Shown here piece after piece: positions 1,780-36,528 of a stretch of 64,000 nucleotides of DNA. The position numbers and the translations under genes are program-made. Below the pieces are notes generated by a model. The model was not told the DNA's origin, did no database searches, and saw only the letters and a program-made list of their open reading frames with translations. Where the stretch lies: contig NC_068350.1 of NCBI RefSeq assembly GCF_014633365.1, positions 29,875,119-29,939,118 on the forward strand, written 5' to 3'. The DNA comes from Diospyros lotus. Lineage: Eukaryota > Streptophyta > Magnoliopsida > Ericales > Ebenaceae. Positions within the stretch are counted from its first letter, which is position 1. Each line of letters starts with the position of its first letter.

Positions 1780-4700
1780 CTGATGAACATGAGTCAGTAA
1801 ACAGAATTCATAGACACAACTATGTATAAGCACACCAATCAGTAAACAGAATTCATAGACACAACTATGTATAAGCACACCAAAACAGTTTTTGCCGCTC
1901 CCAAGGTTTATGAAGCTATTAGTGCACAACATATATTTCCTTAAAGAAAACAAGAAAAGGTACTACCTCATAGCCAATCCAGGCAATGGAAAGCAGAACA
2001 AACACTGCAAGGGAATTGGTAAACTTCCGATAGAGCTCAAGCTTGGCCATGCTTCTTCGCATCTGCATCCAAGAGGAACAAGATAAAAAGTTGAGAATAA
2101 TAATCAAGCAATGACTGCATTATCCCAACAAAAAGTATGTGGTGTCACCGCCCTTGGCAGAAACAATAATCTTCCCTTGACTCGATGGAATTCAAGGGAT
2201 CAGAGAAGAAAGCTAGGGGGAGAGAAGAGAAAGAACAGAGGGAAAACAGAGACAAGAGAGAAATAGAGAATATAGGAGAAATATAATTGTCTATTGTCTG
2301 AAATTGCATAACCTCTCCTACAGAATAGGGAGAGTAGATATAGTCGTTGGCAGGGGTGTGGATGCAGCAGATCATCCACCCTTCCAACGGTTACAACAAC
2401 TTCTTTTGTCCTTTTCTAAGGCCTTACACATGGCCCTCCCATTCTAACAGAATTGACAGCTGGAATGTAAGTGCAGCAATTAGAATGAAAGAAATACAGC
2501 ATAGCCTATCGAATAAACAAGAATAAGACCAAAAATAAAGGCAAAAATTTAAAATAGCCATAGCCATGACATGTGGTTGTACTCAAAGGTCCACCTCGCA
2601 CCTAATGGGATTAAGGCTTTTGCGATGATGATGATGACTCCTCCATGAACCACCTTGTTATTCAGGGGGGAAAAAAATCTATATATATGACTAATCTATT
2701 TCACTAATAAAATTAGATTATCGATGGCTGAAATATTTTCAGCAAATAGATTTCTACTTTGTAGATATTATTGGTACCTTCAAGGATTCAATCAAACTGT
2801 CATTCTAATAGCAGAAAAAAGAACAGCTTCACAATAGACACAATATGCCAAGGGATGCAAAACACCAGTTACATTACATGAAGAATTTGCTTGAAGAGTT
2901 TCTGAGTTTTCAGAGATTCATCTTACTATGAAGTGGTAGATCCATTTGCTCACACAAATAGAAATGCACAACATACATTATATGAATATATGCAAATTTT
3001 AATGAGACTCTTGACCGCCAGTTAAAAAAAATAGAGGCCATCCCTAGTGCACAAAGCTCCCGCTTTGCAAGGGTCAATTTCCTAAAAAGCTTTACCCCTA
3101 CTTTGCAACATGGATAATTTCTAGAATTTAAACCTGTGACCTAGTCACAAAGGAGTAACCTTACTATTGCAACCAAGGCTGGCCCTCTCAACCATCAAAT
3201 TGTATTAGAAAAAGATATATATAAAAAGTATCCATCCTATAGTACCCATGCTGAAGGCCAAATTGAGAAATGGCAGTACTCATACAAATGCATGTGTAAA
3301 AAGGAAGAGTTTAAAGACAAAAAATTACCTGCAGCTTTTCTAGTGTTTTTGATAATGATGAGAAAATCCACAATATGAACCAAGCATCCAAGAAAGCAAC
3401 AGGAAGCACCAAATATATCTTAGCTTTTCCAGAGAAGTCATTTACATTCCCCAAATGTTCAACAAGCTCAAGTGCCTCTGAAGCAACAAAATATATTACA
3501 CCAAGAAGAAGAACTTTTGATGTTACACCTCCAAGGGTAGGTTTTACCACACCATAGCCCATTGAAACCACCAAAAGGAGCAAGCGAGATAGAGTCTTTT
3601 TAATAGCACTAATTGTCACTGCCCATAATGTGATCCCCATTGGCCTGCTTCCAGTTGCATTTAAATTTGCATACTCAAAGTACCAGAGAGCTGTTTCACA
3701 CATTCCAAGAGCAATCACTGCTGTAATGTGGTAGTGCAATTGTATAATATCCTTCCAGAACTGAACAAACCGCAAAAACCATATTAGGCCAAGAACAAGA
3801 TAAGCTAATGATACAATGCCATAGAAAGTCATCAAAGGGACCATCTTCCCAGGTAAATAACCTCCAGGGTTTCTCCACACGGTTCTACCCTGAATTACTG
3901 TGCCCTTTAGTTGTGGATCACAAAACATGAAATAGAGATAGTACATTCCAGTATTATTTATTTGGACAGTCCGAGGTTCCATCTTAGCTACTTGACTTGT
4001 TCCTTCGAAGAACGTTTGAATGCGTTTTGGCCACTCATCATTCTCTAGGTTTTTGTGAATAATAACCTCTCCTACTTTGCAGGATCCTTCCGCGTGGAGT
4101 TCAGGGGTGCAACATATATCATCAGATTTTAGGAAAGCACCTCCAATCCTTTCCCTATCTTTTACCTCAACTATAATAGCTTCAACCAATCCAGTCCGAC
4201 TCTGCATTTTATTCTGTTTATCACTGGACTCTTTTGTTCTTGTAAATTTCAGATCTTCAAATCTGCATATTACCAGTTAGAGTGAGATCTCATAAACATA
4301 TTACAGCAAGTATCTATAGGCTAAAATGCATTAGAAACTAGGAAATCAGAACCTCCTAGCCCATTAATTTGATACCAGACCAGGACATGACTAAGCCAAG
4401 TTAATAATTAAACAGTTCTTCCGACTCCAAAGACAGGTGAACTAGTTCCTAGAATGTGGCAATTAGCTCCATAACCATTCATCCAAAAGATTTAATCTCT
4501 TTGAATATGTTCAAGAAAAACTGGTGATCCTTCAAATTCAATTTCCACTAATTTCCCAAATTTTTAGTATTTAAATCATATAATATGAAACAGAAGTTCT
4601 AAATTACTACCAAGTAAAGAGTACTTGAACACATAAAAATGGAAAAAGTATAAGGAAGGTAGAAGTCATTGTCACATAACATCAAAGTGAATAAACTGTA

Positions 4701-7700: not shown

Positions 7701-10700
7701 TGTTTGATAGAATTTCCTAGAATTTGGATGGAAAATAAATTTCATCCTCATTTTTCACCCCTATCAAATGCACCCTTTAGAGACAAATCACCAGGAAAAG
7801 GAGCAAATAATAAACCTAGACCAACTATTCCCTTAAGATAACAAAGTAGTCTTTTCCAAGCTAGCCAATGTTGTTGTTTTGGTGAAGATAGAAATTGACT
7901 TAGCTTATTCACCACAAAAGCAATATCTGGTCTAGTATATGTCAAATATTGAAGAGAGCTAATGATGGTGTAATCCCAGTCATCCATTGCACTCAATCAA
8001 ACCCTCAATCCTCACGATCAATAAGCGAATCCCCACACACTAAAGAAGAAAAACAAAATATAGAAACAAAAGCATGCACACACATACAAAGCCGGGATTT
8101 ATCTTGGTTCAGTTCTTCAAATGAAGAATCTATGTCCAGACCGCCTTTGGGCCTATCTCCACTATCATGAAAACACAATCAACGATTACATACACTGCTC
8201 TCTAATCTCTCACAGCCCTATACACACACAGGCTATACAAAATCTCGAGATTACAAAGCACTCTACTTTTCTCTCTCACACACACATTCTCGACCTCTCA
8301 CTCAATGAGGCCCCGACCCCCTATTTATAATACATAAGGGGCGGACATTACAAGATAATATCTCGATAAAACCGTTACACTACTAACCAACTTAACAAAA
8401 AACTAACTAGTGAAATACCAAATACATCCTTGACAAATACCCTCCCGAGCCTTTTAACTAATCTAAGACAAATGATAACAAATTCTCCACCCATTTGAGT
8501 TGGATTAGTCTTCCTCAACACTTCTACATGTACCCTCCCATACTGCCATGCTCTTCTTCACTCAGCATCTGAAATAGTTTGCAGTATCTTCATGCAAAGC
8601 TTCAGCTTTGTGGTAGGTACAACTTTAGTAAACATGTCAGCCGCATTCTTTTCACCTAAAACTTTTGTTAGTATAATATCTTGTTTTTCAATTATTTCTC
8701 TAATGAAGTGGTGCCTAATGTCTATATGCTTTGTCCTCTCATGGTGAGCCTAGTCCTTTGACAAATGTATGGCACTTTGGCTATTATACATCAAAGTGGC
8801 TTTCACATCTGACACTAGGAGTTCGCTAACTAGGCCCTTAAGCCACATGTGGTGGCTTTATCTACAACCGAAGCAGGCTTGATTTCCAACTTATTGTTGA
8901 GTTCCACTACTTAAATGCATACCCGGTTGTGGATCTCCTTTTATCCAAATCAGCATAGTCTGCACCTGAGAATCCTATGATACTAGCATGTTCTCCTATG
9001 CTTGCTCCACCATACGACAAAACAATATTATATGAGCCCTTTAGATACCTAAACACCCATTTTACAGCATTCCAGTGAGTTTTACCTGGGTTTGGCATAA
9101 ACCGACTCACAACACTCATAGCATGAGCTAAGTCAGGTAGAGTGCATACCACACTATACATTAAGCTTCCCACAGCACTCGAGAATGGTATATTATCCAT
9201 TTCCTTCATACTTTCTTCATCCTTGGGAGACTGATCTGAGGACAACTTAAAATGAGAGGCAAAAGGCACATTCACTATCTTAGAATTTGCCATTCCAAAC
9301 CTAGATATCAGCTTTTCTAGATAGGATTTTTGAGATAGGTAAATTTTCCTTTGCTGTTTGTTTCTAGAAAATTCTATTCCGAGAATTTTCTTTGCTTCAC
9401 CTAGTTCCTTTATCTCAAATTCAGATCTTAAACTTCACTTTAATTGTTGAATCTCTTGCTCAGATTGACTTGCTATGAGCATGTCATCCACATAGAGAAG
9501 CAAGTAAATTGAGATGTTAGGTGAGATATATTTAAAGTAAACACAGCAATCATAGGAACTCCTAAGATACTCTTGTTTCAACATAACAGTATCAAATTTC
9601 CTATACCATTGTCTTGGAGACTGCTTAAGCCCATAAAAGGATTTCTTAAGCAAACACACTTTCTCCACCTCTACTCTAGACTCAAAGCCTTTAGGTTGAT
9701 GCATTAGAATTCTTTCTTCTAAGTCTCCATGAAGGAAAGCTGTTGTTACATCCATTTGCTCCAATTTTAAGTTTAAATGATCAATAATGGCCAACAACAT
9801 TCTGATTGAGGTATGTCTCACAACAGGTGAGAAAACCTCATTGAAATCTATTCCTTGGATTTGGGTAAAACCCTTGGCAACCAACCTAACCTTATTCCTA
9901 GGTTTAGGATTATCTCCAACACCTTCCTTTATTTTGTAAAGCCATACGTTGTCCTTTTGGTTTATCAACTAGATCCCAAGTTTGGTTTTTTCTTAAGGAT
10001 GCAATTTCTGACTTCATGGCTTCTATCCATTTTCCTGACTCTTTTGAGGCCACTGCCTCTTCATAGGTGAGGGGTTCACCTCCTACACTTTCTCAAGCAC
10101 TTATTAGGGCATATGCCACCAGGTTTGAGAAACCATATCACTAAGGAGGCCTTTGGCTCCTCTATTGCCTATCCCTAGCCACACTGCACCTAGATGCAAC
10201 TGGGTGATCTCCTAGGCTAGAGTCTACATCACTACCTCCTTCACTCTTCTCATATTGAGTTGAGTGTTGATCCTGATCCTTTTCCTGGACTCGATCATCC
10301 AAATCCTGATCATTTTCAGATACTTCCAAGGTGTTTTCAGACGCTACTCCTTTAATATCCACATCTATGGACTTAGTATTTTTCCCTAAGTCTGGTTGGG
10401 TTTCTTTATTTCTTGTTTTCATGGTAGAACTTTCATCAAACGTCACATCTCTTGTGACTATTGTTCTTGGCCCTTCTGGTTCAAGGTTCCATAATTTGTA
10501 ACCTTTTACACCAGTGGGGTACCCTATGAATAAGCATCTCTTTGCCCTACGTTCTAGCTTGCCTTACTTCACATGAGCATAAGCTAAGCATCCAAATACT
10601 CTAAGGTGACTTAGACTTGGCTTATGCCTTGTCCATCTTTCATAGGGAGTGTGAAAATCAACGGCAGCTAATGGTAACCTGTTTATCACATGAGCTGCTA

Positions 10701-13700
10701 TTGAAACTACCTCTCCCCAGAATGATTTGGGCATATTTAAATGAAAGAGCATGCATCTTACCCTTTCCAATAGGGTCCTATTCATTCTTTTAGCCAACCC
10801 ATTTTGTTTAGGGTTACCCGAGGCAGTTAAATGTCTAACAATATCACTATCCTTACACATTTGGTTGAATTCCTTATTGCAGAATTCAAGCCCATTATTA
10901 GTTCTTATGATTTAGATAGATTTACCGTTTTGGTTCTCTACCATCTTTTTCCATATCCTAAAAGCCTTAAAGGTATAATCATTTGTTTTTAAGACATAAA
11001 CCCATAACATTCTAGAGTAGTCATCAATGATTGATAAGAAGTACAGAGAGCCACCATGGGTTAGGGTTTGAGCTGGCCTCCACAAATCCGAGTGAATATA
11101 ATCTAGGGATGATTCAGATGAATGAATGGCTTTCTTGCTAAACTTTACCCTTGCAGCTTTGCCATAGATACAAGACTCACATTTACTCAATCCAGTAACT
11201 TGACCATGCCCTAAAATACCTTGCTTGGCAAATTCCTTGAACCCTTGCTCACTTATGTGTGACATCCAAACATGTCACAGCCTTGCCTATTTTTGGACAT
11301 TATTGCTTGCCACTGCAGCTTCACCACTCAAGGTGGTTGCTTGCAGAAGGTATATGCCATTCTACAGCATTGCTTTCATGCATACTAGGGATCATTTTGA
11401 TATTTTCAATACTGCACCCTCACCCTTAAATTTAAGGCCATTCCTATCCAGTTTCCCAAGGGAAATTATGTTTCTCGAGTTTAGGATCGTGCCTCACTAC
11501 AGAGAGAGTTCTATATGATCTATTATGCATTTTCAACCTTACATCACCAATCCCTAATACTTTACACTCATGGTCATTGCCTAACAAGACCTTTCCCCCA
11601 TTTATTTCTTCATAATTAAGTAGCCAATGCTTCTCAGGGGTCATGTGGTAAGAGCAACTGGATCGTGCCTCACTGCAGAGAGGGTTCTATATGATCTATT
11701 ATGCATTTTCAACCTTACATCACCAATCCCTAATACTTTACACTCATGGTCATTGCCTAGCAAGACCTTTCCCCCATTTATTTCTTCATAATTAAGTAGC
11801 CAATGCTTCTCAGGGGTCATGTGGTAAGAGCAATCGAAGTCTATAACCCAATCATTGGACTCGGCTCTCTCTAAAACCATTAGTGCATCAGAACTATCAT
11901 AATCAAATTCACACACATTTACACCCCCATCAACATTCTCCTTATCAAGAAAATCCTCCTTTTTCTTGGGGTAGTTTCTCTTAATGTGGCCTTCTTCATG
12001 ACAATGGTAACATCTTATAGGGTTCTTTCTTGTCTTAGACTTTGACCTAGATTTTCCCTTATCTTTATTGTCTTTCTTAAGGCTTCTAGATCTTACAGTC
12101 AGGACATCTCCAGTCGAGGAGTTTCCCTCCACCTTGCTCCTTAAATCCTTAAGAGTTTAGGGGATGTGATCCACCTTGCTCCTTAAATCCTTAAGAGTTT
12201 AGGGCACCTATCACATCCTCTAGTGTTAAGAGGTCTCTACCATGTTTTAAGATATCAACAAAAGTCTCATAAGACCTAGGTAATGAATGGAACAAGAGTA
12301 AAGCCTTGTCTTCATCATCCTACTTCACATCTATGTTTTCAAGATTTAAACAAAGTTTATTAAATTCATCTATGTGATCTTAAAGTTTTTTATTATCATG
12401 CATTTTAAAAGTAAAGAACCTGACCTTTAGGGAGAGACAACTGGAAAGGGACTTTGTCATGTAAAGACTCTCTAGCTTGAGCCAAATCTCCACGATTTCT
12501 ATAAAGGTGAAGGCACCAGTTCTGATACCAGATTGTAAACCTAGTCGTCCACCGCACTCAATCAAACCCTCAATCCTCACGATTAATAGGCAAATCCCCA
12601 CACACTAAAGAAGAAAAACAGAATATAGAAACAAAAGCATACACACACATGCAAAGACGGGATTTATCCTAATTCAGTTCTTCAAATGAAGAACCTACGT
12701 CTAGACTGCCTTTGGGCCTACTCCACTATCTTGAAAACACAATCGATGATTACATGCACTGGTCTCTAATCTCTCACAACCCTATACACACACAGGCTAT
12801 ATAGAATCTCGAGATTACAAAGCACACTACTTTTCTCTCTCACACAACACATTCTTAACCTCTCTCTCTCTCGCTCAAGATAGGAAAAAACCCGTGCCTC
12901 CCAATGAGGCCCCAGCCCCCTATTTATAATACATAAAAGGCGGACATTACAAGATAATATCTAGATAAAACCGTTACACTACTAACCAACTTAACAGAAA
13001 ACTAACTAGTGAAATACCAAATACATCCTTAACAAATACCCTCCTGAGTCTTTTAACTAATCTAAGACAAATGATTTAACAAATGGTTCTATATAGGGAT
13101 GGATTAGAAAATGATACAACATCATTAGTCAAAGAAACTCCCAGATTTACTGGTGTAGCACATGGCTAGCAATCTTGACAAATACCAAATACCTCCTTGA
13201 CAAATACCCTCCTGAGTCCTTTAACTAATCTAAGACAAATGATTTAACAAATGGTTCTATATAGGGATGGATCAGAAAATGGTTCACCATCATTAGTCAA
13301 AGAAACTCCCAGATTTATTGGTGTAGCACAGGGCTTGCAATCTTGCATTGCTGCCTTTTTTCGACAGATCTATAGTATACTTTGATTGAGTAAGGTATAT
13401 GTCACCGCTATCTCTATGAGCTTCAAACCCTAGGAAGTAGTTCACTAATCCTAGTGTTTTGAGAGCAAAATGAGTATCCAAATCTTGAATACAAGATTGA
13501 CGAGCTTTAGAATCAAAACTAGTAACAAGGATGTCATCAACATAGACAAGAATGAACAAAACATATTGAGAGGGTCTTCTTGATAAAGAGAGAAGCATCA
13601 AAAAAAGCTTTGGTAAAACCCCAACCTTGTAAGGCAGTCCTTAATTTTGTATACCAAGCTCGAGAAGCCTGTTTAAGACCATATAAAGACTTTTTCAGTC

Positions 13701-16700
13701 TACAAACATGAGAAGGGAACTGTGGGCTTACAAAATCTTCAAGCTGTGACATATAAACAGTTTCAGTTAAGTCTCCATTGAGAAAGGCATTATTGACATC
13801 CACTTGCTGAATATCCCAACCAAAAGTAATAGCCAAAGAGAATAAAACCCAACTAGCGGGTGTCTTAATTACTGGACTAAAAGTTTCAGTAGTCAATTTC
13901 AAGGGTTTGAAGGAATCCCTTAGCCACTAGCCGGGCTTTATACTTGAGAATAGATCCATCAAGATTACACTTGACTCGAAACACCAATGAGATTCATACT
14001 AGAGGAGAAGGGAACAAGATTCCTGCAATGCAGAGAACTCCTCTTGCATAGCTCTAACCCAATGAGAATCTAAGAGAGTCTCATGAACTGAAGTCCCATT
14101 TGCAACCAATGAGGTTCATACCAGAGGAGAAGGGAACAAGATCCCATGGGTCATTATGCTGCAATGCAGAGAACTCCTCTTGCATAGCTCTAACCCAATG
14201 AGAATCTAAGAGAGTCTCATGAACTGAAGTCCCATTTGTAGCCAATGAGGTTCATACCAGAGGAGAAGGGAACAAGATCCCATGTGTCATTATGCTACAA
14301 TGCAAAGAACTCCTCTTGCATAGCTTTAACCCAATGAGAATCTAAGAGAGTCTCATGAACTGAAGTAGGCTCTAGGGTACTCACTAAAGCATGAGGAGAA
14401 GTAGTAACAAGTTATTTGGATTTAGATCTTGTAACCACAGGATGGATAGAAGGAGCTAGAGAAGCTTTTGGTTTGGACAAAATAGGCTGAACATGCTGTT
14501 GAGCAGAAAAAGGAATCAAAAGAGAATTAGAAGAAGAAGTGTCAGCAAAAGAAGGAGAGGATAAGGAAGGGATAGAAGGTGTTACCCGAGGAGAATGAAG
14601 GAAAGGAATGAAGAAAAAAAATCTATGGGCTAAATCCCTAAATCATAAGTCAAGGTTGTGGTTTTCAACATATATCAATTTCAATATCAAGTATTACTTT
14701 GTGAAAATGAAAACCAAATGAATTCCAAGTATCAAGGTTTGCAAAACCATATTTTTTTAGGTCTGGAAGGTTAGCACCTTATAAGGAGGCATATAAGAAA
14801 ATATTTTCTTTTTAAAAAACTATCTCCCCGTATTTTGATATCTAATATTCATTGATATTAAAACAATTTTTAATGATTTTTTTCATGAAATAGAAAATAT
14901 ATATTTTGGAGGTAGTAATATTGTTAAATTTTGAGTTTGTACTAAAACCAAAATTCTACTTTCTTATTGTTATGGATTTTGATTGTTTGGATATTTTTAT
15001 TGAATCTAAATAGGGGATACTTTTTTATTTACATTTATATATTAAAGTAAATAGAGAGTAAAATATAAATAAAAGAAAATGTGAACATTTACTTTCAAGT
15101 AAATGTGATATATACATGCTATGGATTGTGCTTTCAAGTAAATCCATCTGAAAATCTGTCATATTTCTATGCATGTTTCGAAACCCTTTTGAAAAAGTTT
15201 TCATGTTTTCTAAAGTGAGTGTGTATGCTATTTCGAAACATCTATATATTAGAATTTGTTTTAGGTTTCGGACTATGTTTCGAAACCTATATGTCATGTT
15301 TCGAAACCTCTATCAACAGATCATTCAAATCCGAGATGCTTTTGTTTTGCATTTTAATATTTATCTAAAAGCTTCTCAAAGTATTTTTAAATACATTCTC
15401 CATGCTATGAGATTCAAATTCAAATTTGAATGTGAGTGCTTTTAATTAATCATAGTGGGAATAGATTATGTCTCCCACTCATTGCTGTCTCTAAGTGCAA
15501 GTATAGCTAGAAAGACTGTATGTTTCGAAACATGAGGAGTATGTTTCGAAATCTAAGTGTAAAATTGTGATGTTTCGAAACATGTATGCTATGTTTCGAA
15601 ACCTACTTTTTTGTCTTGTCTCTAACGACTAGATTTTTATCTCTTGATATAAATAGCAAGTGTTTGAAGACAAGAATAAGAAACAAGAGAACACACACTA
15701 GAGACACATACACAAGCACAAGTGTTGATCAAATCATTTATTCAAACTCTCAAAGAATATCTTCTACAAATCCTATTCTTGTGCATTGCAAGTGTGAAAG
15801 AAGAAGCAAGTGCAAACAAGGAGTCTCATCTCTTCAGCTCTCCTCACCTCAAACCAAGAGGTTTGTATAGCCATTTGGTAAGGCATTTTATTGCATTCAA
15901 ACTATTGGGCTATAAAAATAAATCTTTATTTATCTTGTTAATGTTGTAAAGTTTGAGTTTAGCCTAAAACTCATTGTGGTGAAAGGTTTGAGTTGAGCCT
16001 AAAACTCATTGTGTCAAAGGTTTGAATTGAGTCTAAAACTCACTTGGTGTAAGGTTTGAATTAAGCCCGTAAAAACTCATTGTACAAGGTTTTGAGGTGA
16101 ATCGTGGTAAAACCCTTAATATGGTTGATCACTAGTAAAAGTGATTGGGATTGAAAAATCCTTCAAGTAGGTAAGCTTGAAGGTAGTAAACTAGGCAGGG
16201 TGCCGAACTACTATATATCTTGTGTGCAATTGTTCTTTCGCTTTTGCTTATCATTATTGCCTATTACTCATGCTTTCAAAAGAATTGTTTTCAAAGACTA
16301 AAACAAAGTTTTCTTGAGCTTAAACAACATATTCTTCTTAAGCATAAGTATTTTCATATGCATTAGTACTTATCATTGATCTCAAACACCTTTGGTATAT
16401 TTTTACTTATGTAAATCATCTTTGCCAAAAATCATTATTTCGAAATACAAGTTAAAAGATTTCAAATCAAACAAAACAAAAAGGTGTATTTTGAAACATA
16501 CAATCTATATTTCGAAACAAATTATAACAGTAAGATATATTTCGAAACATATATAGTAGGTTTCGAAACCTACTTAACAGAAAGATTTATTTCGAAACAT
16601 ATACCCTATATTTCGAAACATAGTGTTCCACCATCAATCATTGTTTTAAATTATCGAAAATTTATACAAATCCCAATTCACCCCCCCCCCCCCCTCTCGG

Positions 16701-19700
16701 GATATATTTTCCATCATTAGGACCAACACAGAGTAGAAAAGCCACCAAAAGTTAACTTAGAGGAAGAAGAAGATGGAAACAAGATAGGAAAAGGATATTC
16801 ATCAAGAATAAATTGTACATGTCAAGAGACATAAACTCTGCTTGATGGATGTAAACATTTGTAACCAGCTTGAACATGACTATATCCAAGAAACACACAT
16901 TTGGTTGAATGAAAATCAAATTTATGCTTGCTATAGGGCCTAAGATAAGGAAAACAAGCACAACTAGAGGGTTGGAGAAGCAAGTAATTGGGCTGTTTAT
17001 GGTAAAGCAATTCAAAAAGAGAGTGAAAAATGAGAGGAGAAGCTGGTAACAAATTTATAGTGTAGACAACAGTTTGAAATGCTTCTACCCAAAATTAAAA
17101 TTGCAAAGGCATGTGAGCATAGGCTAATAATGTAAGACCTATCTCAGCTATATGTTTATGCCTTCTTTCAGCCACACCATTCTGTTGGCGTGTATGAGGG
17201 TATATAAAACGAGGTTGAATGCCATGATCACGAAGGTAGCATAAAAAGGCTTGGAACTCTCCACCATTATCAGTTTGTACAATCTTAAGTTTGGACCGAT
17301 ATTGTAATTCAACAAACTTGTGAAAGGTTATAAAGGTGGCCAATGCATTAGATTTTCGTTTCAATGGATATAGCCATGCATACCTAGTATAGGCATTAAA
17401 AAAAAATGATATAATACCTATATCCTTTTGTGGAGACAATAGGAGATGGACCCCACAGATTAGAGTAAATAAATTCCAAAGGTTTCTTTGCTGTGACTTT
17501 ACAATGGGAAAAGGGAAGCTGATGTAATTTTCCAATTTTACAAGTGTCACAAAACGAAATAGAAGAACTAGAACAGAGAATATGAATTTTATTCAAGACA
17601 ACATGTGGGTTGTGGATTTAGTTAAATTCAAATGAAATGGGTTGGGCCAAGTTGAAAAATAAATTCTTTGGGCCTTAGGTGAGTTGGACCTAAGTAAAAT
17701 GATTTGGATTAATGGATTAGGCTTGAGCCCATTTGCAAAATAACGAGTTAAATTAAAAAGGAAATGAAATGAATTGTGAAATGTCCAATAAAGGCTTAAT
17801 GACTTTATGTTGTGTCTGAAAATGGTAAGGGTAAATGAGGAATTTCATAAATGGATTGGATAAATAAAACGGAAAAGAAAAGAGAAATGACAAATGTCCA
17901 AAAAGGGCATGAGAATAATTGTGGTTGTGTAAGTGAAGGGCAAAAGGGTAATTTGAAAAGGCAAGAGACATATGGCCCATTCTTTCCCTATTTTCCCCTC
18001 CATTGTTCACTCTCCTCTCTCCTTCCTCTCTCCCGACAAGTCTTCTTCTTCTCCATTTTCATCTTCTTCATATTTTGGCTTGGAGCTTCAAGGGAGAATT
18101 TTCAAGTTTGGGAGAGAGCTTCTTCTCCTTGGTTTCTCTCCATTAAGAAGGCAAGTTCTCCTTACATCTCCTTTTGTTGTGCAAGTTCTTTTCTCTTCTC
18201 CATTTATATGCAAGTTCCTTCCTCGTTCCATTTTTCCCTTGAATATGTTTTCTTGCTCTAATTGCTTAAGTGGTGTAAGTTCTTCTATTGTTTCAAAAGA
18301 TATAAGCTCCTCTCTTGTTTTCTGTTCTAAAAAGTAAATCCTATTAATTCCCCCATATTTGGAGTATTGGGTATTTGAAATCACATTTTTGGTAAGGGGG
18401 TTTGTTACAATCCGGTTGTTTGTAATTCGTGTAGTTTTTCTTCGTTTTTGGTAAACCTAGCCTAGGGTCTACATGAGGTCTTGTTTCACCTCATCTTTTC
18501 AAAGGAAGGAGGACACTTTTATTGTTGGGGTGTAGATCAGTGCAAGAATTTTGGTGAATCTTGCAAGAAATGGCGTTTTCGGGTCACACAGCGGTCCTAC
18601 CGCGGCGTGCTTGTTGCAGCGGAATCGTGAGCTCCAACAAGCATTTCCTATTGCGATCCTACCGTGGAATGCATTCCGCAACATGACCGTGAGCTCCAGA
18701 TTGCACATGTTGTACATTTCAAGTCATAACTTTATATGGTTGTATCCGATTTGAGATTCGCTTTTTGCGTTATAAACTAGACTCAATAAGCTTCGTTTTG
18801 ATATAGAATTTGGATTAATTGGACAAGTATTGAGCCTGTAAATGCCTTGTGAAATACCCATTTGAAATCTGGGATTTTTGTTTAAATCCGAAAATGCTCC
18901 GATTTTTGGAACATAACTTCCTGTGGTGCTATCCAAATTGAAATCTGATTTTTGTGCCATAATCTAGACTTCATAAGATTTGTTTTGGCATATTTCTTGA
19001 ATCATGTTGGGAAATTGTCATGATATGTACATGGTTGGCATGATCATGGGACTTCATGTGTGATGCATAATATGATTATTATCTTTGCACGCCTATTATT
19101 TTTGCGCAGCGACTATGTTCACAATGTCCATGGGAGATAAAATGATATCCTAAGAGCGCCTGACGTGAGTTGAGGTGGCCACAAGCCTGGTAGGCGATGC
19201 TCAAATTTTAATTGCTTCTTGATGTATTTTCATGATGTATGTATTCATGTATGGATATGGTGGTTGTGGGAGCCATGTGGAAATTCCTTACTATTAATGC
19301 ATGTGCATGAGCATGGAAATGGTTGTGAATGGAAACTTATGAGTGGTGTCCTACTTACACATTTTCATAGTCATTATTCACTCTATCTTGGTTATCCATG
19401 CCCTTGATTCTATCTCTCCATGCATTATATATATACTTGCTTAGCGTTATTCACTCACCTTGTTGTACTCTCATATCATTCTAGGTAAAGGTAAAGCAGT
19501 GATTGAGGGCGAGTCTAGTAGGGTTAGGGCCCAAGTTTAGAGATGTACAAAGACATCCCAAACTAGACGGTCCATGTTAGTAGTTTTGATGAGGGGATGT
19601 TGTGAGGAGATTTTATTTTGTTAATTACAATAGTGCTCTTGTATACATTTTGTATAGGCCATGGTGCCAAAATGATGAAAACTAATGATGATGTAAGACT

Positions 19701-22700: not shown

Positions 22701-25700
22701 CTTATTATGTTTAAAGTTCAAATTCCTTTGGGAATGAATGGATCTCAAACTTTGATATTCAAAGTTCAACTTCCTTTTGGAAATGAAAGTATCTCAAACT
22801 TTGATATTCAAAGTATATTTTATTTACAGAAAAAAAAAAAAAAAGATATTCAAAGTATAAAGCAAACTCTTCTGGTAAAAAGAATACCTTCAATACCTTG
22901 AAACTTGTATTCCAACAACCATTGTAAACAGAAGAAAATTTAAAAATTAGAAGGAAAAAAAGGATAAGGCCTCATAAAATAGGTCACAATGATATTTGTT
23001 TGTATCCCCTTAAAAGCTCTAAATGCAGCCATTTCCCAAAGAAATTCCCATTTTTCAGAGGATTGCAGCTGAATATGACATTTTATTTTGGTTGTTATCC
23101 CCAAAAGGATCAAATTCTTGAAGGAGAAGCTTTTCCTTTATTTTGGAATTTGATATTGACTTGTTCAGTAACTGCATAGATGCATTAACCACTACAAAAA
23201 GACCTGACAAAATACTGCCCTCACTGACTTCATTTTTTTATTCTTTCCTGAGATAACATATTAAGTTCCATATCAAGAGCTCATGTAGTCAACTCCTCAA
23301 AACTCACTGGCTACATGTCACAGTCCTAGGGTTATAACAGTAATTACAGCTTGTTGCAATTACTGTGCTGTACCTTGTTTGCTGCTGTACAATTTGTACC
23401 TTTCAGTTAACAGTTGCAACTAACTGAAAGCAACTTGTATCTTTCAGTTAACAGTTACAACTGACAGCTAGAAGGCCTATAAATAGGCTATTACTTGGAG
23501 GATGAGAGATTATGACGTGAAAAAAAAGAATTTTTTTCCCTCGAAAATTTCTCTCTTTCTCTCTGTTCTTTCTGTTCTCTCTCTCTTTCTCGATTACTCT
23601 TTCTGAATTTCTTCCTAAAAAACCTAAGAAACCCTAGGTCAGGTCTAGGAACCTAACATTTGATATCAGAGCAAGGCGATTCCTAAAAATGTTTTCAAAG
23701 ATGACTCAAGCCAGCCTACCAGTGGATTTTCCTCCAAGATCCATAGCAGAACCGATTCCAGCAGGAGCTGGAATCCTACCTAATGCCTCTGGTTTGCAAG
23801 AAGCTGAGGAATTACCTATATTGGATCAGGCAATTCAGATTGAAAGATCATCCATCTGTGCGGATACTAGTGCTTTAGTGCATGAGGCTACAAAAGGTGT
23901 CCAGTCTTCCAAGAATGAAAATATTGTCTTTCCAATTGAGGAGCCTTCAGAGATAAAGAAAATCTCTTCAGGACATCTTCGTCTTTTAGGTTTCAAGCCA
24001 TTGAGGTGCTTAAAAGAATATCATAACCTGAGACCATCAACATTTTTTTTTCCCCTAGTGATGAGGAAGTTGTTAGGAGTACTTGCATTCATTGCTCTTC
24101 ATAGATCCATGCTACAGCTCAAACGCTTTGCAGTTGCGTATTATGGGAGTGCTACTAATCTTTGATTGGTTGCCCTTGTTGCACAAGACAAGATTATCTC
24201 TGTCGGTGGACAGGTTGAGCCGCCTGGAATGCACATGATAAATCTTCCATATTCTGAGGACAATAGAGAAATTAAAGAGCTCCATTTGGATGAAACTAGT
24301 GCAACTCTTAAAGCAACTGTGATGATCAAATTAGTAAGGCTGTTGCATTAAGGAGACAGGTTGATTTAAAAGACTTTTCAGTGTGCCAGTTTGCTAATCC
24401 CACCTTGCAGAGACACTATGCAGTTCTTCAGACTCTAGCACTGGATGAAGATGAGATGTCAGAAATCAAAGATGAAACTCTTCAAGATGAGGAAGGCATG
24501 GGAAGGCTGGGAGTCATTAATGCGTTGGAAGAATTTAAGAATTCTGTATATGGGGAAAACTGTGATTTCTTGGGGATAAGAAATCTTTTGAGGGGGGATT
24601 GTCACAGTCCTAGGGTTATAACAGTAATTACAGCTTGTTGCAATTACTGTATTGTACCTTGTTGCTGCTGTACAATTTGTACCTTTCAGTTAACAGTTGC
24701 AAACTTGCAAGAGACTGAAAGCAACTTGTATCTTTCAGTAAACAGTTACAACTGAAAGCTAGAATGCCTATGAATAGGCTACTCCTTGGAGGATGGGACA
24801 TAATGATGTGAAATAACATAATTCTTCCCCTCCAAAACTTCTCTCTTTCTCTCTGTTCTTTCTGTTCTCACTCTCTTTCTCTCTGTTCCTTCTGTTCTCT
24901 CTCTCTCTCTCTCTTTCTCAATTATTCTCTCTCGATTTTTTCCTAAAAAACCAAAGAAACCGTAGGTCGGGTCCAGGAACCTGACACTACATTCCTTAAT
25001 CAGTTTGTAAGAGATGCCCCAATTCATTCATCAGATTCATATTTGAAATATCAGACATCTTGACAAGTGATTCAAGCAGTTGACACCCAAAGCTTTGTCA
25101 TCTGTCAACTTTGTGAAGAGTGAACACCAAATTTATTTCGTGTGCTATCAAATGTCATCAACTTTAATCATGTAAACGATGAACATTTTGCTGAAAACAA
25201 ATTTAGGAACTATTGCTCATGATATTCTTAACTATGTAAAATATATCATTTTAAGAAGGAAGAATTGCTGAAGCAACAGGGCTCCACAATGACAGCACCC
25301 TATACTCTCAAAAATTGGAAATATGCTTTGACTAGTCTTTGCCATCAAATTGCTAGAGGATAATAATTTTCTAGCCTCTTCCATAATTTTTCCCTTGAAA
25401 TCTACCTTCCCAATCTAAGTTCCATTTACATTTAAAAATAATCAAACATTTGTCTAGAAATGCTCTTTCTTTTGCATCTTATTTCTATGTTCAAAACTAG
25501 GAGTTTATTTTTCCCCTAACAGAGAAGGAATAAGACACAAAACAAAATTACTTACGGTTCCGTACTTTTTGCTTATACATACGAAACTGTTTCCTTTTAA
25601 TCCCACAAATCCATCTTCCAGCATGTCATAAACAAGCAAACGAAGAAACAAATCCTACTTTTCTTCCCTTCTCTTCTTTCATTTATTTTAATTTTTCATC

Positions 25701-33961: not shown

Positions 33962-36528
33962 TTATACAAAATCAATTTTTCTTGTATTTTGAGATGCAAA
34001 ATTGTTGATTAAATCTTCATAATCAAGTTTATCTAATAAATCATGTTCAATAGATAATATAGTTAATCCATTCAATCTTTCCTGTGACATAGTTGACCTC
34101 AAATATGATTTTATCAATTTTAATTTTGAAAAACTTCTTTCTGCAAAAGTTACTGAAACTGAAATTGTCAATAATATTCTATAAGCAATATATGCATTCG
34201 GAAATGAATCGACTTTTTTGATGTAATAAAGAATTTCCATTGGACTATTTTTTTCTCTTGAAAAGTTTCTCTTAACACTCTTAATTCTAAAAATAAATCT
34301 AAACCATCTATATCAGAAAGTTCATCAAATTTAAGAATGTTTTCAAGATTCAAACAATATTCTTTTAAAATATTTTCATCCATTGATTTTAATTTCTTAA
34401 AATTGCATAGAAATCCATTTTTTTTTCATATATTCTAAATTGCTCAAACCTATTTCGAAGTGAAGGAATGACTTAATCAATCATGTATATAAAATAATCA
34501 ACTCTAAAAGATTCTTCAGCATATTGTATTTTATCATTATCAACATTTTCATCAAATTGTTTTTTCTACGAATCACACGTTTTTCACGAAATATGGGTTA
34601 TATTTCCATTTCATTTGCAAGTTTTTTGGCAGAAACCATAGCAGATTCAAGTCCATTTTCCTTATAAGTTTCAAAAAAAAAAAGAAAAAAAGACGTTTTA
34701 ATTGATCTATAGTAACATCAATATACATATCTTCACTTTGAAAGCTCTTACTAACTCAATTAACTGCATACAAAATATCATACCAAATAATCATGCCTAA
34801 CAAAAATTCAAAATTCTCTAATTCATACATTGCAAGACATTTAGCTTCACTCTTTATTTTAGGATCATCACTACTTTATGCTAATTCAAACAAAGCATCT
34901 TGTATTTTTGGAGCTTGAAATCTAATTGCTTTGACACTTTCAATTCGACTTTCCTAGCGAGTTTGTGACAATGATTTGACAGTTAAATTAGATATGTTAT
35001 CCTTTAATATTTTCTATCTTTTGGGTGAAGAAGAGAATAATGAATATATGCGTTGTAAAACTCCGAAAAATGAAACAGCCACAAACTACTAAATTAAATT
35101 AAGACTATTAACACAAGAGGTGGCAACATCAGAAATTACTAAATTAAGACTATGACAACCACAAGGTGTATATAATGCTCTAGAATTTATCTCCAATAGT
35201 CTTTTCTGTACACATTGATGCTTTCCCTTCATATTAGACCCATTATCATAATCCTTGCCCTCTTATATCCTTGATATCGAGATTCAAATTTTCAATTTCT
35301 CTTATAAGTTCACTAAAGAGGCCTTTTCCAGAAGTGTCATCCACTTTTAAAAATCCTACAAAGTATTCTTCAATTATTATTGGACTAGTTGAAATATCCA
35401 CACACCTTAATATAAGAGACATTTGTTCTCGATGACTTAAATCTGGAGTACAATCAAGTAAAATGGAAAAATATTTTGCCTCTTTAATTTTCTTCAAAAT
35501 CATACTCTTGACTTCATGTGCTAACATATGTATCAATTCATTTTGGATTTTATGTCCCAAGTAATGATTATGAATTTCACCATTTTGAATACGCCAGACA
35601 TGTTCTTGTAATACTGGATCAAATTCAGCTATCATCTCAATAAGACTTAAAAAATTTCCATTATTCACATGATAAATCTTTTCATTAGTTACATGAAATG
35701 CCAAATTATTTTTAGCTAGAGCTTTTACCACAACAATTATTCTTTTTAAAACATTTCTCCAATGTTCTTTTTTTTTACTAATTCTTACTTGCACATCCCT
35801 GTCAATTTCTTTACTTTTAGAAAATCTCAATTCTAAATCAAACCAAGCATTCATGTTAAATAAGTGCTCCTTACTTGTTTCATGACCTTTCAACCTTGTA
35901 CTAAGATTTCTCCAATCTTTAGTTCCTTCATTACCAAATTGGCTCCCACTATATTTTGTACCAAACAGTTTGCAACAAAGACAATAAACTTTGTCAAAAT
36001 CCTTTGAATATACCAACTATCTTCTATCATAAGTTTCCCCATTTGATAGTCTCCTAGTATAATAAAAAGTGGAGAAATGCCTAGAAGTTTTATCCTTCGA
36101 AAAATCTATATCACTTTCTCTAATTGGACCTTTTTCAACTAACAAGTCTCTTAACTTAATATCAATATATTTTCCAATCTTCCTAGATCATAAATATTAA
36201 TAAAAACATTACTCGGGTTATTGTCAATATCCTTAGTTTCCACATTAATTTCCTCTTCTTTTGTATTTTCTTGACATTCTCCACCATCCATATTATTATC
36301 ACATTTTTCATCGTTATATTTCTCTATGGTTTGTTTTACCATCATCTCATTATCTCCCATTTCATTTAAAGTTGTGTGTTCAATTGTTTCATTACTTTGA
36401 CTATTTAGATCTCTCTTATTACTTATGATAAATTTTTCAAAAGTGTCTTTTTGAGATTGAATCAAACTATCTATTATTCTCTTTTTCTTAAGTTTCTCAT
36501 ACCCCGATATATATTTTCTATTGGACAT
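33962..36528 (-). pseudogene. hAT transposase, TTF zinc finger / ZMYM1-like
   Basis: N-terminal frame 36528-36151 begins MSNRKYISGYEKLKKKR. The next frame (36016-35246) has VYCLCCKLFGTK of the TTF-type zinc finger, STRLKGHETSKEHLFNM, and the DUF4371-like RNase-H-fold start LLDCTPDLSHREQMSLILRC, in which the conserved D of the catalytic fold is present. The C-terminal frame (34240-33962) is the hAT dimerisation region, FAERSFSKLKLIKSYLRSTM and QERLNGLTILSIEHDLLDKL. Between them (34380-35245) the reading frame is lost to stops. Parts reading [10 protein letters not shown] and [16 protein letters not shown] lie between the first two frames. It encodes no functional transposase. Confidence 0.85.

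Follow-up and report, generated by a model that had tools for sequence, protein, structure and literature searches.

A decayed LTR element with spliced KU70 exons in Diospyros lotus and its family, whose members captured parts of four or more host genes, possibly through splicing of a gag leader

In the window, the 64-kb stretch of Diospyros lotus DNA analysed here, which is C13:29,875,119-29,939,118, positions 23316-24986 are spanned by a 1,671-bp LTR element with both LTR ends present. The paired LTRs, primer site, purine tract and perfect CTACA duplication that the initial annotation had described could all be located, and the features are as follows.

23311..23315, no strand: target-site duplication CTACA, left copy (exact match to right copy)
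23316..23658, + strand: 5' LTR, TGTCAC...CTAACA, 343 bp (LTR pair alignment)
23661..23672, + strand: primer-binding-site-like TGATATCAGAGC (11/12 match to TGGTATCAGAGC)
23673..23838, + strand: gag-derived leader common to the family (gag link via relatives)
23839..24565, + strand: KU70 fragment from residue 309 to about 550, eight exons joined with their introns missing (domain, protein and spliced-DNA comparison)
24560..24589, + strand: family 3' end motif (CTGTGATTTCTTGGGG...), overlapping the KU70 end by the microhomology ACTRTGA
24590..24598, + strand: polypurine tract GAGGGGGGA (sequence)
24600..24986, + strand: 3' LTR, 387 bp (LTR pair alignment)
24987..24991, no strand: target-site duplication CTACA, right copy (exact match to left copy)

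The two LTRs are 79.7% identical with gaps counted and 90.9% identical over 341 aligned sites (K2P 0.097), and the sequence with which the window's TGATATCAGAGC was compared, TGGTATCAGAGC, is the one that we take to be the initiator-Met primer site. The 941-bp interior had been described as almost empty except for Ku70. The Ku70 part is indeed there, but the first 180 bases or so are gag-derived leader and the last 34 or so are the family 3' end. Genes for the element's own movement are absent from the window copy, in which Pfam gave Ku domains only. TRIMs have LTRs of about 100-250 bp and interiors of about 100-300 bp, and the window element, with LTRs of 343 and 387 bp and its interior of 941 bp, exceeds these limits. 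The end of the leader holds two sites 9 bases apart, GATCAG/ at 23829 (site A) and ATTCAG/ at 23838 (site B), where the slash marks the joint, as it does below.

Within the element, Pfam placed a Ku barrel domain (4.1e-22) and a Ku C-terminal arm (3.8e-16), which stand in different frames. Ku70 had been expected as the best protein match to the interior, and it was: the KU70 of Diospyros lotus itself came first at 77% identity (120 matches listed of 376 found), and the Ku domain PF02735 was present in all of these best 120 of 376. The Pfam domains and the protein matches rule out a chance similarity to Ku70. The donor KU70 gene lies on C13, about 28.9 Mb from the element and on the opposite strand, and the fragment aligns to eight consecutive exons of it with 677 of 726 bases identical (93.3%). 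The seven introns between these exons, of 799, 1462, 2458, 536, 69, 167 and 187 bp as aligned, are absent from the element; for the fifth, a 73-bp GC-AG intron is the better reading, as splicing in this way restores the KU70 protein frame, and the other six are GT-AG. A GC-AG pair (73 bp) is apparently used in the donor gene itself (C13, L009), in the intron preceding the exon that begins CTCCATTTGG. With eight exons joined and seven introns crossed, the proposal that the segment was copied from spliced KU70 mRNA held up, and as judged from this comparison the fragment is derived from spliced RNA. Decay is visible in the window copy, where a CGA-to-TGA change gives a stop at 24163-24165 and two-base gaps shift the frame, and its sequence gives no sign of a working product. 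The distance from KU70 to the element is 0.070 and that between the LTRs is 0.097; therefore, KU70 was probably captured not long before the element inserted. No relative of KU70 was found in the viral contigs searched.

The element had also been described as minimal; that it is a lone minimal one is not supported, and relatives in its family carry SMC5, PRP40A and a coiled-coil gene. A DNA search of the 630-Mb assembly with the element interior, in which 40 out of 236 first-look candidates were scored, gave at least 48 stretches that match, so that the census is a lower bound. A KU70 protein search gave 28: the donor gene accounts for 18, and the other 10 fall at nine element loci, the window among them. 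We analysed 42 copies, namely the window, all 37 remaining element loci from the DNA search and four more from the KU70 protein search (L011-L029 and L031-L052). When the same captured segment was sought in these copies, which were picked by likeness to the window interior or to KU70, so that the shares do not represent the whole family, KU70 was found in 23 of the 42 (nine by protein and 14 only by its first ~36 bases), SMC5 in 15, PRP40A in 21, all three in eight and none of the three in ten (E 1e-3). Wherever positions were determined, the segments stand in one order (leader, KU70, second leader piece, SMC5, PRP40A, 3' end), with the duplicate leader piece between KU70 and SMC5. An SMC5 search, with 44 out of 472 candidates scored, gave at least 46 stretches: the donor accounts for nine, and the remaining 37 are spread over 32 further loci.

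Among the ten copies that carry none of these three genes, L039 and L052 hold the fourth host gene, the coiled-coil gene, which was seen in these two of the 42 copies, and L048 and L042 give gag matches. Those of L048, a relative that shares LTR and leader, are to Retrotrans_gag (1.6e-10) and Ty3_capsid (2.1e-8) in Pfam; that of L042 is to Ty3_capsid (1e-5), short of the cut-off. In L049, L043 and L041 the DNA continues past the leader like that of gag-type copies. Pfam found no gag domain in L052, and no pol domains in the seven of the 42 copies scanned. An LTR check on 14 copies found a pair in 12, of which four have a 5-of-5 target duplication, four have a 4-of-5 match and in four none was found. 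The eight copies with a duplication candidate are 1.7-3.3 kb long, with LTRs of about 290-440 bp. Copies L024-L029 make up an apparently older KU70-bearing subgroup, in which the KU70 piece extends to base 120 in L024 and to base 129 in L025-L029; the leader of L024 and L025 ends differently, with GGTAACTACG preceding KU70. At L036 (193-2188), LTR-like stretches recur every ~560 bases ahead of the family copy, in a manner resembling a tandem array.

The other captured pieces can likewise be set against their donors. SMC5, whose donor lies on C5, is represented in L011 by a piece that skips five introns and matches the donor at 568 of 623 bases; a PDB search with the SMC5 piece gave no useful match. 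PRP40A has its donor gene on C8, and the candidate start sequence of the captured piece is GATGCCAAG; in copies without KU70, such as L013, the junction reads CAATTCAG/GATGCC, and in L019 SMC5 passes into PRP40A at a common GGATG. The fourth gene matches its donor (C14:35052819-35053926) at 751 of 808 bases in L039 and 740 of 805 in L052, and a paralogue on C2 begins to match at nearly the same base. Only an intron of ~0.38 kb is counted as clearly absent from this piece, as gaps of 85 and 526 bp in the alignment are doubtful because the donor has an internal repeat, a tandem repeat of ~280 bases within the captured part. We leave this gene unnamed, since Pfam gave only a sub-threshold match to CENP-Q. 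The initial annotation had attached significance to the activity of Ku70 at DNA ends; with SMC5, PRP40A and the coiled-coil gene captured as well, this finds no support, and because PRP40A and the coiled-coil gene were taken too, we have dropped the link to end joining.

The 5' joints could be tested for three genes (KU70, SMC5 and gene 4), and in all three the host part starts at the start of a host exon, after a leader CAG. On the element side, the KU70 joint is at site B, and those of SMC5 and gene 4 are at site A. In the window, leader GATCAG GCAATTCAG leads directly into the KU70 exon at ATTGAAAG (donor ACTGAAAG), the donor boundary being TTGTGCAG/ACTGAAAG and the end of the previous exon AAAG/GTACTA. 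The captured SMC5 exon starts after GACCAG in the element and at AATGCAG/TCATTTG in the donor, where the previous exon ends GGAAG/GTAGAG, 4,372 bp upstream. Genuine introns therefore precede both the KU70 and the SMC5 exon in the donors. Gene 4 also begins after GACCAG (donor boundary TCTGCAG/ATCAGTG), at an exon start that is apparent from sequence context rather than from a protein model. By a rough estimate that allows two bases of ambiguity at each joint, the chance of three exon-start joints is about 1 in 100,000. The KU70 joint in other copies reads CCG, CTG or similar, not CAG, which we take as later change. The 3' joint of KU70 in the window is mid-exon, with ACTRTGA common to both sides, an arrangement that a later deletion could also give. 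Deletions after capture could have altered some of the joints.

We compared the leader end in the ten copies without KU70, SMC5 or PRP40A, eight of which are gag-type there. Site B reads CAG/GTTAGA (ATTCAG/GT) in five of these eight (L042, L048, L041, L031 and L036) and has no CAG/GT in L049, L043 and L023. At site A, CAG/GT is seen in one of the eight (L036, GATCAG/GTAATT), L042 and L048 have CAG/GC, and the other five are changed (CAG/AC, CAG/AT, TAG or CAA forms). A scan of five copies chosen among those with site B showed further splice-like motifs in L036, L041 and L031. In the fetched donor regions of KU70 (L009) and SMC5 (L053), no LTR or leader remnant was found (blastn E 1e-2, eight family queries, simple repeats masked), and an ancient insertion in a donor intron may have been lost.

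The pattern of the joints is consistent with transduction in the style of retroviruses, that is, splicing of leader RNA to host exons followed by template switching. We infer the following course. An RNA driven by the LTR would start from a family copy in or upstream of a host intron, and a 5' splice site in its gag leader (GATCAG/ or ATTCAG/) would be spliced to the next host exon, with the following host introns spliced normally. The chimeric RNA would then be co-packaged with normal element RNA, and reverse transcriptase, by switching template at short matches, would gain the 3' end and LTR. SMC5 may have been captured first, with KU70 added later in front on an SMC5-bearing copy; a second leader piece would remain between the two if a KU70 copy switched back to the leader of an SMC5-bearing element, and this order would account for the second leader piece ahead of SMC5. 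Later template jumps may have deleted different segments in different copies. On balance, we read the window element as one decayed, non-autonomous copy within a Ty3/gypsy-type LTR family of Diospyros lotus whose members hold spliced parts of four or more host genes, probably acquired by leader splicing and template switching. More tentatively, and with somewhat less than even confidence, we suggest that the 5' splice sites of the gag leader act as a natural exon trap, through which four or more host genes unrelated to one another (KU70, SMC5, PRP40A and the coiled-coil gene) were transduced, as retroviruses take oncogenes, and stacked serially in single elements.

A rival route, which we regard as a serious but doubtful alternative, is plain template switching at both ends between co-packaged element RNA and mature host mRNAs, the exon-start joints then being coincidence or switches on the three bases CAG. 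Such switching between RNAs is one proposed route by which plant LTR elements pick up host exons, as described in the extracts of PMC13317346, and it would explain the microhomology at the joints (ACTRTGA for KU70, GGATG between SMC5 and PRP40A). It also sits well with the lack of element remnants in the fetched KU70 and SMC5 donor regions and with intact splice-like sites in only part of the uncaptured copies. Host intron ends are also CAG, and a three-base switch on partly spliced RNA could mimic splicing. However, every testable 5' joint falls at an exon start after the leader CAG, whereas the only clear 3' joint between a host piece and the element end, that of KU70 in the window, falls mid-exon, and we continue to favour leader splicing followed by template switching. 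A processed KU70 pseudogene lying by chance between unrelated repeats would also lack introns, but it is scarcely credible beside paired LTRs with an exact target duplication and eight other loci at which the KU70 piece starts in the same region, six of them with the leader ahead; the arrangement common to other copies refutes a lone processed pseudogene.

The pieces might also have been kept for what they do, either as a leader-host fusion protein or as a source of small RNAs against KU70 and SMC5, and we consider this improbable. The leader frame runs across the joint in at least one copy for each joint tested, namely the window (KU70), L012 (SMC5) and L052 (gene 4), while in L039 a missing base breaks the frame ahead of the gene 4 joint. 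Raw pooled ratios among copies were 0.78 for KU70, 0.62 for SMC5 and 0.71 for PRP40A. With a spectrum-matched shuffle, in which codons with more than one change were dropped, omega became ~0.68 for SMC5 (12 pairs) and, looking neutral, ~1.08 for KU70 (28 pairs) and ~0.96 for PRP40A (27 pairs), the pairs being non-independent. The synonymous excess of SMC5, at 0.354, lies outside the 95% band of the shuffle (0.214-0.332), and the window piece against its donor gives a dN/dS of 0.57, in which both branches are mixed; the window copy nevertheless carries its stop and frameshifts. After the shuffle, and although SMC5 falls outside the band, we claim selection on a leader-host fusion for none of the genes, and the captured fragments now probably lack any function as protein.

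That LTR elements can capture exons is already known; what sets the Diospyros family apart is the pattern of the joints and the serial capture. Maize Bs1, an LTR element with pieces of three host genes that forms a new chimeric gene, resembles the Diospyros elements in combining several host genes, although the genes are others here and the pieces are shuffled and decayed across a family (PMC13317346, extracts). Bs1 had been offered as the classic precedent, and it has company: the soybean TRIM GmaRetroS15 carries fragments of three genes, and Gao et al. 2016 list 30 gene-carrying TRIMs (both from the extracts of PMC4717578). Like the Diospyros copies, these are small non-autonomous LTR elements with 5-bp duplications and exon-only host fragments, with more than one donor gene per element and several copies. 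They measure 1,172-1,449 bp, whereas the eight Diospyros copies with a duplication candidate are 1.7-3.3 kb with LTRs of ~290-440 bp and a gag leader, and exon-start joints at a leader splice-like site, as in the Diospyros family, are not described for TRIMs in the extracts of that paper (PMC4717578). In retroviral oncogene capture, as the extracts of PMC4276931 describe it, promoter insertion, read-through and splicing join the leader of the virus to exons of the host; in alpharetroviruses the splice donor is inside gag, and the capturing viruses lose genes and need helpers. The Diospyros case differs in being a plant Ty3/gypsy-type element, with no oncogene, known from DNA alone. A genome-wide survey counted 672 and 1,343 LTR-captured genes in rice and sorghum, with DNA/RNA metabolism over-represented among those of sorghum (PMC3726574, extracts); no joint analysis was found in the extracts.

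Searches of the open-access literature, outside which most subscription journals fall, turned up no description of this family or, for plants, of an exon-start rule. Several donors in the same genome and joints resolved to the base make a splice step and a template-switch step separable. If the splice step is real, splice sites in the leaders of elements would allow gene capture to be predicted, and the joint test would be applicable to captured genes in any plant genome. Moreover, this genome is left with numerous related copies of segments from two DNA-repair genes, a testable source of small RNAs.

Elsewhere in the window, an open frame at 3311-4207 (- strand) has a GOST seven-transmembrane domain (2.7e-61) and is likely part of an ordinary host gene. 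Retroelement pol pieces lie at 11641-12132 and 17095-17550 (- strand; Pol_BBD 4e-18, and an integrase core at 3.9e-7, just under the cut-off), with further pol-like frames at 8907-13902. DUF4371 occurs in hAT-like transposase-derived genes, and a frame at 35246-36016 (- strand) carries this domain (5.2e-18).
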